From NCBI RefSeq assembly GCF_039655775.1, contig NZ_JBBYXJ010000001.1:434001-498000 (forward strand): 64,000 nt of DNA, in the 5' to 3' direction. The notes below the pieces were generated by a model. It made no database searches and was not told where the DNA came from. It was given only the letters and a program-made list of their open reading frames with translations. The number at the start of each line of letters is the position of its first letter. The first letter of the stretch is position 1. The stretch comes from Iodidimonas sp. SYSU 1G8. GTDB lineage: Bacteria > Pseudomonadota > Alphaproteobacteria > SMXS01. This document shows positions 38,513 to 43,190 of the stretch, piece after piece. Both the position numbers and the translations under genes were made by a program.

Positions 38513-38769
38513 AGACCGTCGAGGTCGTCAGTTAATTTTACGCGCTGACTTAGTACCCGTTTTGTGCAATCGGCCCGACATGCCTTGTGGCGCCGGTTGT
38601 CGCGCGGGTGTAACTTCATGTCTTGAGACGTTGGGTCAGGCGTGATGAGGGGCTCTGGGGGGCTTATTCTCGCCGCGGCGCAGTCGTTCGCTTAAGAGAA
38701 AAACGGATTTACTGTACTGAAGCCACGTCTATTTGCCTTTGCAAGGATGTGGTGATTGAGGGCCACCAA
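38513..38769. other. Spacer between hemA and the histidine kinase
   Basis: 257 bases with no convincing gene, hairpin terminator or clear promoter. An open frame runs in phase into the kinase from 38623, but its composition is not protein-like and the kinase start at 38770 has a good ribosome-binding site. The promoter of the kinase-kaiC-kaiB operon probably lies here. Confidence 0.4.
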
Positions 38770-41043
38770 ATGTCTCCGAAACTATTTGGCCCCGGGGCGC
38801 CTGGTTGGCTGCTGGCCGGTCTCGTCACGGTGTGCTTGGTAGGAACCCTTGACTTTCTTACGCCTATAGACACTGGCGGGACGCTTTACTTATTGGCGGT
38901 CTTGATTGCGGCGGTGGGCCGTCGTCCTCGGCATGTCGCACTGGTCGCAAGCCTCGGACTAGTCCTGTTGTGGCTTGGCTTTTGGGGCATCGGCCCGCCT
39001 GACGCCAACGTACTGATCCCGGCCGGAGTGACGGCAGCTACCTTGGCGTTGGTAGTGCTCCAGTTCATGACCCGCAACGAGCGAACCAGCCTCGAGTTCG
39101 GTTCCCCGACGAGGGTCTTCGACGCGATGGGCGAAGTCATCGTCGCGGTCGACCGCGACTGGCGCGTTCGTTACGTCAACCCGGCGGTCGAGACCATTTC
39201 GGGCCTTCGTATCGCCGATGTCCAGAACCAGTCGTTGTGGCAAGCCTTTCCCGCTCTCCTTGGCGGAGAGTTTCACCGCCGCTACGTCGAGTCCATGGAT
39301 AGCGGCCGGGAACTGGATTTCGAAGCATACTATGACCGGGCTGATCGCTGGCTGCGCGTTCGCACATTCCCAAGCGCCGATGGATTGACCGTCATGCTGG
39401 CTGATCACACCAGCGAGCATGAGAGAGTGACAAGGATTGCCGTCGGAGAGGCGGCTCTGCGCCGCCAGACGGATCTCTTGGGTCGCGTCATAGAAGGCAT
39501 GCGGGACGGGCTGGTGGTCCGGGATGCCACCGGCCATGTCATGTTCGCGAACTCCATCACGCGCCAGTTTCTGGGGCAGGCTGTTGCCGGCGACGGCAGC
39601 GACTTTTCGGCCGAAGGCGTCGTCTTCCATGATCCCCTGACGGGCGAGGTGGTGCCTGCCGATGCGCTTCCCTCATCGAAGGCCTTGCGCGGGCAGAGCG
39701 TGGATGACGCGGAAATGCTCCTGACCTCGCCCGGGCGGCCGAAGCCGCTTCTGGTTCAGGTGAGCGCTCAGCCATTGCTCAATGAAACCGGCGAAGTCGA
39801 TGGATGCATGACGTGGTTTCGGGACATCACGGACATACGCGAAGCCGAACTTGCGCGCAGCGAGACCGAGGCCCGGCTGCGCCAGGCGCAGAAAATGGAG
39901 GCCGTAGGCCAACTGGCTGGCGGAATTGCGCACGATTTCAATAATTTGCTCACGGTGATCGTGGGCAGCGGCGAGATGTTGTTGGAAGAGCTCGCCACAG
40001 CGGAGGCGGACGTCAAGCGGCTCGCCGAACAGATATCGGCCGCGGCGAACCGGGGCGCGGAATTGACCCAGCGCCTTCTGGCCTTTTCACGCCGACAGCC
40101 TCTCAAGCCAACCGTCGTGAACGTCAATGCATTGGCCTCGGGAATGTTACCCCTGATCCGGCGGGCGTTGGGCGAAGCCATCGCCATCGTCGAGCTTTTC
40201 GATGCTCAGGAGTGCACGACGCTGGCCGATGCGAGCAACCTGGAAAATGCGCTGCTGAACCTGGCGGTGAATGCACGAGATGCCATGCCGGCTGGCGGCA
40301 CGCTCACCATCGAAACGCGCAACATCCTGCTGGCCGATGGCCGTCATGACGTACCGGCCGGCGAGTACGTGATCCTCAGCGTAACCGACACGGGGAGCGG
40401 AATGAGCCCCGAAGTCCAGGCCAAGGCATTCGAGCCGTTCTTCACGACCAAGGACGCGGGCAGGGGCAGCGGACTTGGTCTCGCGACAATCTATGGATTT
40501 GTGCGACAGTCGGGTGGTTTCGTCGATATTGAAAGTAAGCTTGGCGTAGGCACGACGGTGGTGATCGGCCTGCCCCGGGTATTCGTGAGCGGGGTTTCGG
40601 AAGCCGAGGTCGTCCAGCCACCAGCTAAGCGTGGGCACGGAGAACTCATTCTGGTCGTCGAAGACGATGAATTCGTGCGGGCCACCGTCGTTCGTCTTCT
40701 GGGCGACATGGGATATCGGGCGCTCGCGGCTTCCGATGCCAGAGAGGGGCTCTCCGTGTTGATCGATCATGAAGACATCGCCTTGGTGTTCACCGATGTG
40801 GTGATGCCGGGGATGAGCGGATGGGATCTGGCCGCGGCGGTCAATGAGGTGCGTCCGCAGACACCCATACTGTTTGCCACCGGATATACGGATAACGTGC
40901 TTTTGCAGCGCCCTGGCCTCGACAGCCGGATTCTTGTTCTGTCGAAACCGTTCAAGGCCAATGATCTAGCCGATGCTCTGGAAACCTTGTTACATTCGCA
41001 TCCGGAAGAGTCGCGGCGGAAGACCCTCGACGTAATGCCTTAA
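38770..41043 (+). CDS. Membrane hybrid sensor histidine kinase with receiver domain, next to kaiC
   Basis: 757 residues. About four membrane helices fill residues 8-100 (WLLAGLVTVCLVGTLDFL, TLYLLAVLIAAVG, ALVASLGLVLLWLGFW and ATLALVVLQFM), with almost no periplasmic loop. Two PAS-like domains follow (about 110-220 and 235-365). The HisKA domain has H388 in GGIAHDFNNLLTVIVGSG; the ATPase domain shows NLAVNARDAM, DTGSGMS and GRGSGLGLATIYGFV. A C-terminal receiver domain has phosphoacceptor D676 in LVFTDVVMPGMSG. No output domain and no KaiB-like sensor domain as in SasA. ATG 38770 follows GAGGG. It ends 14 bases before kaiC, so it is the likely signalling partner of the Kai proteins. Confidence 0.9.
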   Translation: MSPKLFGPGAPGWLLAGLVTVCLVGTLDFLTPIDTGGTLYLLAVLIAAVGRRPRHVALVASLGLVLLWLGFWGIGPPDANVLIPAGVTAATLALVVLQFMTRNERTSLEFGSPTRVFDAMGEVIVAVDRDWRVRYVNPAVETISGLRIADVQNQSLWQAFPALLGGEFHRRYVESMDSGRELDFEAYYDRADRWLRVRTFPSADGLTVMLADHTSEHERVTRIAVGEAALRRQTDLLGRVIEGMRDGLVVRDATGHVMFANSITRQFLGQAVAGDGSDFSAEGVVFHDPLTGEVVPADALPSSKALRGQSVDDAEMLLTSPGRPKPLLVQVSAQPLLNETGEVDGCMTWFRDITDIREAELARSETEARLRQAQKMEAVGQLAGGIAHDFNNLLTVIVGSGEMLLEELATAEADVKRLAEQISAAANRGAELTQRLLAFSRRQPLKPTVVNVNALASGMLPLIRRALGEAIAIVELFDAQECTTLADASNLENALLNLAVNARDAMPAGGTLTIETRNILLADGRHDVPAGEYVILSVTDTGSGMSPEVQAKAFEPFFTTKDAGRGSGLGLATIYGFVRQSGGFVDIESKLGVGTTVVIGLPRVFVSGVSEAEVVQPPAKRGHGELILVVEDDEFVRATVVRLLGDMGYRALAASDAREGLSVLIDHEDIALVFTDVVMPGMSGWDLAAAVNEVRPQTPILFATGYTDNVLLQRPGLDSRILVLSKPFKANDLADALETLLHSHPEESRRKTLDVMP

Positions 41044-41057
41044 CTTCAGGAATACCT

Positions 41058-42773
41058 GTGACCGAGACCGGCGCTATCCCGACAATTCCCAAGGTCCTGA
41101 CGCGGATCGAAGGCTTCGACAACATGCTGCGAGGGGGGCTCCCGCAGGGCCGCGCGACAGTGGTTGTGGGCGCGACGGGCAGCGGCAAGACCATGCTGGG
41201 ATTGCAGTTTCTGGCCGATGGCGTGCACTCGGATGGCGAGACGGGCATTTTTGTCAGCTTCGAGGAATCCCGGGCCGATGTCCTGGCGTGTCTCGGAGCG
41301 CTCGGCTGGCCGGCACAGGCACCCGATGCCGAACTGCACATCATGGACGCCGACTTTCTGCCGAACGTGGTGCAGAGCGGTGCGTTCGATCTGAATGGGC
41401 TGCTTGCGGCTCTTTCCGCGCTGATCCGGGAGTCTGGCGCGAAACGCATCGTGTTCGACGCCGTCGACGTCCTTCTCGACCTTCTGGATGATCCCGCCGG
41501 TCAACGACGCGAGTTGCACCGGCTGTTCCACTGGGTCAGCACCGAGGGCATTACCGCGATACTGACCGCCAAGGCGGATGGCTTCGACCTCGGCAATCCC
41601 ATGCCGCGCCAGCCGCTGCTGGTGTATCTCAGCCACTGCGTGGTCATTCTTCGGTACAATCTCCAGGACGGCATCTGTGGCAGGAGCGTACGGCTTCTCA
41701 AATATCGCGGCACCAACCATTCCCTCAACGAATACCCCATGATGATCGGCGCGCGCGGTATCGCGGTCTACGGGATCCGGTCGTCGGATATGTCCTATCC
41801 GGTCTCCACGCGCCGCGTGTCGTCCGGTGTGGAACGGCTGGATACCATGCTGGGCGGCGGCTATTACGAGGGCTCCAGCATTCTGATCTCCGGCTCGCCG
41901 GGTACCGCCAAGACCACCTTCGGCGGCGCGTTCATCGAGGCTGCCTGCGCGCGCGGCGACAACGCCCTGCTGATTTCGTTCGACGAAGCGCCGGAGCAGA
42001 TCATTCGCAATCTGGCATCCGTGGGGATCGATCTCGCCAGCCATGCCGCCGCAGGTCGCCTGCGCATCCATGGCTACCGAGCCGCCGCCATCGAGACCGA
42101 GGCATTTCTCATGAAGGTCCTGGCCGAGCTGGATGAACACAACATCAGGGCGTTGGTGCTTGATCCCGTGTCGGCGCTGGCCAACCGGACCCAGTTCCGT
42201 GGCAAGAACGAGGCTGCGGCGCGCCTGCTCGACGAGGCGAAAGCACGAGGCATCACCGTTGTGGTTACGTCGCTCCTCGACAAGGCCACCCACGAGGCCG
42301 AAACGACGCAGGCGGCCGTGTCGACCATCGCGGATACCTGGATGGAACTGACGTTCCGGGCCGCGGGCGGAGAACGCAATCGGGCGATCACGATCATCAA
42401 GTCTCGCGGCATGAGTCACTCAAATCAGGTGCGTGAAGTCAGCCTGAGCCATGAAGGGGTGACGCTGTCGGATGTCTATTTCTCCGGTGGCGACGTGTTG
42501 ATGGGCACGGCGAGGATCGAGCGTGAACTTGCGGAACAGGCTTCCGAGAGCGCGCGCCGCGAGGAATTCGAGCGACGTCGGGTCGAACTCGAGCTGACTG
42601 AACAGCGTTTGTCCATGCAGCGGATGGAGCTTGAAGCCGAGATTGCAGCGAGAAGAAGCGAGCTGAAGAGCCTTCAGGACTCCGAAGATCGGCGCTTGGG
42701 GCGCAAGCAGAAGAGTCTGGATGCGGTGCTGAACAACAGGCGTGCGGATGATGGTGTCCGCGACGGGGATTAG
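41058..42773 (+). CDS. kaiC: KaiC-family circadian-clock-type ATPase (571 aa, two RecA-like domains)
   Basis: Double-domain KaiC. CI (about residues 10-245) has Walker A GATGSGKT at 38-45 and the catalytic glutamate pair in FVSFEESRADV; CII (about 250-490) has GSPGTAKT at 279-286 and FDEAPEQI, with D-E in place of E-E. CII keeps the phosphorylation-site dyad S422-T423 in AVSTIADT, aligned with S431/T432 of cyanobacterial KaiC. The domain ends KYRGTNHSLNEYP (CI) and KSRGMSHSNQVRE (CII) are conserved. A C-terminal tail of about 70 residues is a charged coiled coil (RREEFERRRVELELTEQRL). GTG start 41058. Between the hybrid kinase and kaiB. Confidence 0.93.
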   Translation: MTETGAIPTIPKVLTRIEGFDNMLRGGLPQGRATVVVGATGSGKTMLGLQFLADGVHSDGETGIFVSFEESRADVLACLGALGWPAQAPDAELHIMDADFLPNVVQSGAFDLNGLLAALSALIRESGAKRIVFDAVDVLLDLLDDPAGQRRELHRLFHWVSTEGITAILTAKADGFDLGNPMPRQPLLVYLSHCVVILRYNLQDGICGRSVRLLKYRGTNHSLNEYPMMIGARGIAVYGIRSSDMSYPVSTRRVSSGVERLDTMLGGGYYEGSSILISGSPGTAKTTFGGAFIEAACARGDNALLISFDEAPEQIIRNLASVGIDLASHAAAGRLRIHGYRAAAIETEAFLMKVLAELDEHNIRALVLDPVSALANRTQFRGKNEAAARLLDEAKARGITVVVTSLLDKATHEAETTQAAVSTIADTWMELTFRAAGGERNRAITIIKSRGMSHSNQVREVSLSHEGVTLSDVYFSGGDVLMGTARIERELAEQASESARREEFERRRVELELTEQRLSMQRMELEAEIAARRSELKSLQDSEDRRLGRKQKSLDAVLNNRRADDGVRDGD

Positions 42774-42783
42774 GACGGGCAGG

Positions 42784-43089
42784 GTGGTGACGGAACAGGA
42801 CAAGCAGGGCACGAGCACCGGATTGCCGGTAGCGCTCTCGCTTTATATCGCGGGAGGCGCGAACCCGTCCGAGGCGGCACGGGAGAACCTCGCGGCTGCG
42901 CTCCGAGAGTTGATGATCGATGATTCCTCGCTGGAGATCGTCGATGTGCTGCTCCGTCCCGATCGTGCGCTGAGCGACCACATCTATGTGACGCCCACCC
43001 TGATCCGCGTCGAGGCCGGTGCGCGCAAGATTCTCATCGGCGATCTTCGTGATGTCGCGGTGCTCAAGCGTTTCATCAGCGGCCCCTGA
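42784..43089 (+). CDS. kaiB: KaiB-family protein
   Basis: Thioredoxin-like, fold-switching clock protein family (about 101 aa). LSLYIAGGANPSEAARENL opens the domain, followed by LEIVDVLLRPDRALSDHIYVTPTL with the cis-proline P-T-L, and KILIGDLRD near the C-terminus, as in KaiB. In cyanobacteria KaiB binds KaiC after CII phosphorylation. I start at GTG 42784 (or the adjacent GTG 42787), after AGGACGG; an upstream ATG at 42742 would overlap kaiC by 32 bases. Last gene of the kinase-kaiC-kaiB operon; no kaiA is visible. Confidence 0.9.
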   Translation: MVTEQDKQGTSTGLPVALSLYIAGGANPSEAARENLAAALRELMIDDSSLEIVDVLLRPDRALSDHIYVTPTLIRVEAGARKILIGDLRDVAVLKRFISGP

Positions 43090-43190
43090 TCACCGTTTTC
43101 CCAACCGATTCCGCATGGCAGGGTCCAGTTCCACGACACCTAGGGCGTGCTTGGCGGGGATATTCGATATATGGTAGGAACGCCGCGCGC

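Follow-up and report, generated by a model that had tools for sequence, protein, structure and literature searches.

A hybrid histidine kinase gene, kaiC and kaiB form a genuine set of a known kind in the 64,000-nucleotide stretch of Iodidimonas sp. SYSU 1G8 DNA analysed here (the window). The set is a variant of the hourglass timers of purple bacteria, distinguished by the order of its genes, its class of kinase and a changed active site in KaiC. Operons of this type are known; what is useful in this locus is its KaiC clade, its upstream CckA-like kinase, a missing protein module and a presence/absence series among relatives. The interpretation favoured here, held at roughly even confidence, is a KaiA-independent coiled-coil (KaiC2-like) KaiBC module that acts as a state switch tied to a CckA-like hybrid kinase, and not as a self-sustained clock.

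The kinase-kaiC-kaiB locus and its genomic site

The features of the locus are as follows.

38770..41043, + strand: hybrid histidine kinase, ATG start, 757 aa (open reading frame and translation)
41058..42773, + strand: kaiC, GTG start, 571 aa (open reading frame and translation)
42787..43089, + strand: kaiB, GTG start, 100 aa (PF07689)
42504..42752, + strand: kaiC segment encoding the single long C-terminal helix (residues 483-565), which corresponds to the coiled coil of the R. sphaeroides dodecamer (AlphaFold2 and Foldseek)
38513..43105, no strand: optional insert, from hemA to rpiB (comparison with sister genomes)

The sequence-only reading had described three co-oriented genes with short gaps, and all three open reading frames and their domains were confirmed, with 14 bases between the kinase gene and kaiC and 13 between kaiC and kaiB. 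An alternative kaiB start, an in-frame GTG at 42742 inside kaiC, was judged less likely. The three genes are probably read as a single transcript; a promoter and terminator scan gave no signal exceeding chance.

Searches with rpiB located the matching locus in nine of ten genomes of the family. Besides the window, one of the six congeners searched (G002) carries kinase-kaiC-kaiB between hemA and rpiB. Between these two genomes the flanking hemA, rpiB, glyA and nrdR are 80-97% identical and the insert genes 59-63%. As the three genes recur together at the matching position of a second genome, the set is not a chance arrangement, and since they are present or absent together at one site, the kinase is part of the unit. 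A kinase that did not travel with kaiC-kaiB in related genomes would have counted against the sequence-only reading; instead, the whole block is shared with G002. On the right, the insert ends just after kaiB, where the conserved rpiB leader starts (~43106); its left edge falls somewhere from the hemA stop to the kinase start. In three other congeners (G003, G005, G007) and in G001, of another genus, the same site holds a DUF1287 gene (Pfam), and in G004 the site between hemA and rpiB is empty. No kaiBC remnants were found at the empty sites. The window clusters with congeners that lack the kai set, and G002 falls outside this cluster (87/90). Such a grouping fits either a set present in the ancestor and later lost, or one exchanged by way of the conserved flanks, and the DUF1287 gene, being common to other lineages, counts against simple ancestral replacement. 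The DUF1287 gene and the kai set look like alternative occupants of one site (L138, L139, L141, L142).

KaiC architecture and active sites

The window KaiC contains two KaiC ATPase domains (PF06745 twice, exceeding the cut-off) and scores 489 bits against the NCBIfam model PRK09302 'circadian clock protein KaiC' (cut-off 408). It is the one strong double-domain KaiC of the genome; the other proteins matched by that Pfam family gave only weak, partial hits. Its nearest solved relatives are the R. sphaeroides structures 8dba and 8fwi, and the alignment to 8dba runs through the tail.

Active sites were read from alignments with solved KaiCs and from 100 KaiC rows. The CI domain has a GSGKT P-loop and the pair E69-E70. 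In CII, the P-loop reads GTAKTT and D309-E310 are the counterparts of E318-E319, while T417-S422-T423 correspond to the phosphosite triad T426, S431 and T432, and K448 and R450 are kept. The active-site residues are intact except for the change of E318 to Asp. A canonical autokinase carries Glu pairs in both CI and CII, and here the CII Asp replaces E318, the catalytic Glu for KaiC phosphorylation (PMC2777353). In S. elongatus rhythm is lost with either engineered change, E318D or E318A, and phosphoryl transfer is missing in E318A (PMC2777353). Given the CII Asp and the loss of rhythm in E318D, phosphorylation of the window KaiC may be weak or absent.

The C-terminus was predicted as one 83-residue helix (483-565; AlphaFold2, model built from 16 relatives), with mean pLDDT in 10-residue blocks of 80-91 up to residue 540 and then of 78, 68 and 53. 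This matches the coiled-coil type of KaiC, in which a C-terminal extension of ~50 residues forms a long helix. The top Foldseek matches for the model are 8fwi, 8fwj and 8dba, all R. sphaeroides dodecamers. In R. sphaeroides the KaiC tail holds two hexamers together (PMC10076222), and judging from the model this joining tail is very probably present in the window KaiC. Where the R. sphaeroides type has two serine phosphosites, the window protein has S422-T423.

Two clades of KaiC

In an unrooted tree of 36 KaiC proteins, a 100/100 branch parts the KaiC of R. sphaeroides, Sinorhizobium and Falsirhodobacter and others from that of the window and its relatives. The window KaiC is thus outside the R. 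sphaeroides clade, a result that, in an unrooted tree, amounts to separation only. The window and G002 proteins are sisters (100/100), and the earliest branching order in their clade is not settled by the tree. The CII domain differs between the two sides: GK[ST], EE and mostly SS on the R. sphaeroides side, and [AS]K[ST], Asp for E318 in all but two cases, and ST or an altered second site on the window side. Among the 100 surveyed KaiCs, Asp replaces E318 in 79, with S or T at the next position in most of those; in 21, A, K, M or E occupies the second phosphosite. Most of the window-side clade was found with a GTAK pattern, so the P-loop motif is biased; the Asp formed no part of that search. 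Within the window-side clade (L046-L125), Asp at E318 is accompanied by a frequently changed second phosphosite. From these residue patterns, a whole proteobacterial KaiC group may lack a running phosphorylation cycle.

KaiB, KaiA and SasA in the genome

The window KaiB is identified by PF07689 at 48.5 bits (cut-off 27), by matches among the KaiB structures of the PDB and by alignment. Neither window protein attained the score threshold of the NCBIfam cyanobacterial models circ_KaiC and circ_KaiB. The absence of kaiA, noted earlier from the window, extends to the entire genome (3.9 Mb in two contigs, listed as 100% complete), in which PF07688 found no KaiA although it recovered the S. elongatus control. 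Likewise, Pfam detected no SasA-type N-terminal KaiB-like sensor domain on the kinase, as the sequence-only reading had held, and, with a single KaiB-domain protein in the entire 3.9-Mb genome, there is no SasA. A circadian clock in the sense of S. elongatus was rejected because the genome has neither KaiA nor SasA. A link to photosynthesis was also rejected: the whole-genome search returned no type-II photosynthetic reaction centre gene, and the host is a non-photosynthetic alphaproteobacterium.

The hybrid kinase

Two PAS stretches, HisKA, HATPase_c and Response_reg were all detected in the kinase above the curated Pfam cut-offs. Its parts are N-terminal helices (~12-108), PAS (115-217), a further PAS (~245-352), HisKA with H388, HATPase_c (487-603) and REC (627-737) with D676 and K726. 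A low-confidence structure model places four helices at the N-terminus (12-29, 35-49, 53-71 and 79-108), three of which are hydrophobic enough for clear membrane segments. Across the kinase alignment H388, N501, D540, G542, G544 and D632 are invariant and D676 and K726 nearly so, and the catalytic His, the N- and G-boxes and the receiver Asp and Lys of a hybrid kinase are all intact. The architecture, PAS-PAS-HisKA-HATPase-REC behind N-terminal membrane helices, is that of CckA, and one of the closest solved folds is the CckA DHp-CA, at 40% identity. However, the protein scores only 345 bits against the CckA family model, far under the cut-off of 1000, and is termed CckA-like here.

The G002 orthologue is a soluble PAS-HisKA-HATPase-REC protein of 533 aa that aligns to residues 230-741 of the window kinase at 59% identity and has neither the membrane part nor the first PAS. 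The membrane anchor is thus a private addition of the window kinase. A third upstream hybrid kinase, with GAF and PAS, occurs in a marine MAG (L047) whose KaiC is 45% identical. Together, the G002 and L047 kinases indicate that the core is kept and the sensor part changes. It had been argued that a membrane-bound kinase obliges KaiC to communicate with it differently; with a soluble orthologue in G002 this does not hold, the membrane part cannot be a requirement of the KaiBC link, and membrane attachment as the key to that link was rejected.

In a tree of kinase cores, the window and G002 proteins pair at 100/100, and the other kai-linked kinases are scattered among the genome's own paralogues, with most deep forks open. 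A single ancestral kaiBC kinase is unsupported by this tree, whose pattern fits repeated recruitment. The genome (G000) holds 22 further HisKA-HATPase-REC matches (L146-L167; 34-51% identical), a large family for 3.9 Mb.

Partners of kaiC-kaiB in related loci

Across ~95 loci the adjacency of kaiC and kaiB is nearly universal, and a PAS signalling protein usually lies in the same gene run. Downstream of kaiB, a PAS protein was found in 55 of 57 examined loci, the partners including GGDEF (26), EAL (25), HisKA (17) and HWE (3) domains; these counts rest on simple ORF calling, which missed some partner genes and misplaced the starts of others. They agree with a 2011 survey, in which the gene right behind nearly every non-cyanobacterial kaiC-kaiB cluster encoded a histidine kinase or GGDEF/EAL protein (PMC3164672). 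The system had been called little-described, which overlooks that survey of kinase-linked kaiBC clusters (PMC3164672). New here is a kinase that is CckA-like and upstream of kaiC, in contrast to the usual downstream partner.

Also new is that the window kinase lacks a conserved, unnamed N-terminal module of the usual partners. This module of 45-70 residues (GEVD module) was found in 74 of the 83 loci whose sequence extends far enough beyond kaiB, 64 in one form and 10 in the other, by profiles built from the N termini of partner proteins. The two forms, LIxTLHxTxQRLEELTAGEVDAVAD.. and LxEAEETLRAIRxGEVDALVV.., occur irrespective of the output domain (for example at the start of the gene that follows kaiB in L049, L055, L062, L075 and L113, and at L169:6973-7140). 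By eye, the kai-linked kinase of R. sphaeroides begins with the second form, its sequence having been used in that profile. The profiles gave no hit on the kinases of the window, G002 and L047, or in the paralogue stretches fetched from the loci's own genomes, some of which may stop short of the N terminus. The module belongs to no Pfam family, and a search of 398 genomes of the phylum and of plasmids, run without a positive control, returned no match. These results do no more than suggest that the module is specific to kai loci; it is proposed as a candidate docking module. Another upstream partner, also module-less, was seen in L043 (G507), where a PAS-GGDEF-EAL protein is encoded directly upstream of kaiC-kaiB.

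Proposed mechanism and alternative explanations

In the proposed switch, KaiC hexamers would pair via their C-terminal helices, and CI would hydrolyse ATP and, in the right state, bind fold-switched KaiB. The ATP/ADP ratio would set the KaiC state, giving a slow switch dependent on nucleotide and KaiB. This switch would act on, or listen to, the CckA-like kinase, which would integrate its own PAS signals with the KaiBC state. Phosphate could then pass from H388 to the kinase's own D676 and from there to a phosphotransfer protein or regulator encoded elsewhere, as in a CckA-like relay. Because KaiC resembles the R. sphaeroides protein in structure, pairing of hexamers, ATP hydrolysis by CI and binding of KaiB are probable properties.

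The nearness of KaiC to the R. sphaeroides dodecamer, the missing KaiA and the retention of the CI P-loop, E69-E70, T-S-T, K448 and R450 favour this switch, as do the occurrence of the genes as one unit in the genus, the adjacency of kaiC and kaiB across the related loci with a PAS signalling protein usually close by, the intact catalytic residues of the kinase and the 40% identity of its core to the CckA DHp-CA. Against it stand the Asp at E318 and the GTAKT P-loop of CII, the former lowering confidence in a phosphorylation cycle as the timer. The same two changes, an Ala for Gly in the CII P-loop and D309 for E318, lead to a somewhat less probable alternative, namely that CII is no longer a useful autokinase, so that the switch would depend solely on the ATPase of CI, the binding of KaiB and the coiled coil, while the kinase, not KaiC, would carry the phosphate signal. 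The spread of the Asp (79/100) and of altered second sites (21) gives the impression of phosphorylation decaying in the clade, and the arrhythmic E318D mutant of S. elongatus points the same way (PMC2777353). However, E310 and the full T-S-T triad are kept, so selection may still hold the phosphosites, and the KaiC survey was partly selected for GTAK through its search pattern. GTAK[ST] P-loops, moreover, are functional in other ATPases such as MCM and MoxR, which also counts against an inactive CII.

Co-location alone is no proof that the kinase contacts KaiC, and the kinase, one of a family that has 22 further matches in the genome, is sister only to the G002 protein among kai-linked kinases. 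It might instead be an independent sensor that shares a promoter with kaiC-kaiB while KaiBC acts elsewhere; this is considered unlikely. The scatter of kai-linked kinases outside one clade, the sensor parts differing between the two congeners and the missing module would suit such a sensor. Yet kinase and kaiCB have stayed together through divergence to 59-63% identity and are otherwise absent together, and an upstream hybrid kinase recurs in L047. For a true self-sustained circadian clock there are only KaiB and a KaiC with T-S-T sites. With no KaiA, no SasA and the E318D change, and with no robust free-running rhythm even in the better-preserved R. palustris system (PMC4794148), such a clock is very improbable.

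The locus may belong to a broader pattern, suggested here tentatively: a second large KaiBC class with a rebuilt CII site (E318 to Asp, GTAKT, often a lost second phosphosite), timing taken off the phosphorylation cycle and exchangeable PAS readers. In that class, the window would represent an early-branching lineage in which an upstream hybrid kinase serves in place of the usual downstream, module-bearing partner.

Comparison with known systems

A close parallel is the KaiA-independent hourglass of Rhodobacter (Cereibacter) sphaeroides, which is reset by ATP/ADP (8DBA, 8FWJ; PMC10076222) and likewise combines a double-domain KaiC with a long C-terminal helix, an adjoining KaiB and a kinase in the cluster. 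Its order is kaiC-kaiB-kinase with an HWE kinase downstream, whereas the window has a hybrid kinase upstream; its CII carries EE, SS and GKS, compared with DE, ST and AKT in the window, whose KaiC is of another clade. With the catalytic E318 changed to Asp in a KaiC outside the R. sphaeroides clade, the hourglass is not simply transferable. The proto-circadian timer of Rhodopseudomonas palustris (gene order kaiC-kaiB-PAS/HK; PMC4794148) shares the KaiA-less kaiBC, a PAS kinase and a longer KaiC tail but, by its published description, differs in its downstream kinase, TSS phosphosites, retained EE and phototrophic host (PMC4794148). Of the analogy drawn earlier with Rhodopseudomonas and Rhodobacter, the KaiA-less kaiBC with a kinase stands; gene order, KaiC clade (100/100) and the Asp for E318 depart from it. 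A kaiC-kaiB pair with a PAS signalling partner is also shared with the 'orange group' of clusters in many proteobacteria (PMC3164672), to which most of the related loci found here correspond. There the partner is downstream and carries the module in 74 of 83 loci, in contrast to the upstream, module-less hybrid kinase of the window.

The locus bears on the role of KaiA-less KaiBC outside phototrophs, the biochemistry considered here being of the EE/SS type. Its E318D KaiC lets the need for a phosphorylation cycle be tested directly, and the survey points to the conserved N-terminal module as a candidate docking element of the partners at other KaiBC loci. The window and G002 form a natural test pair, with one kaiBC set, two orthologous kinases of which one has a membrane sensor, and close kai-less relatives.
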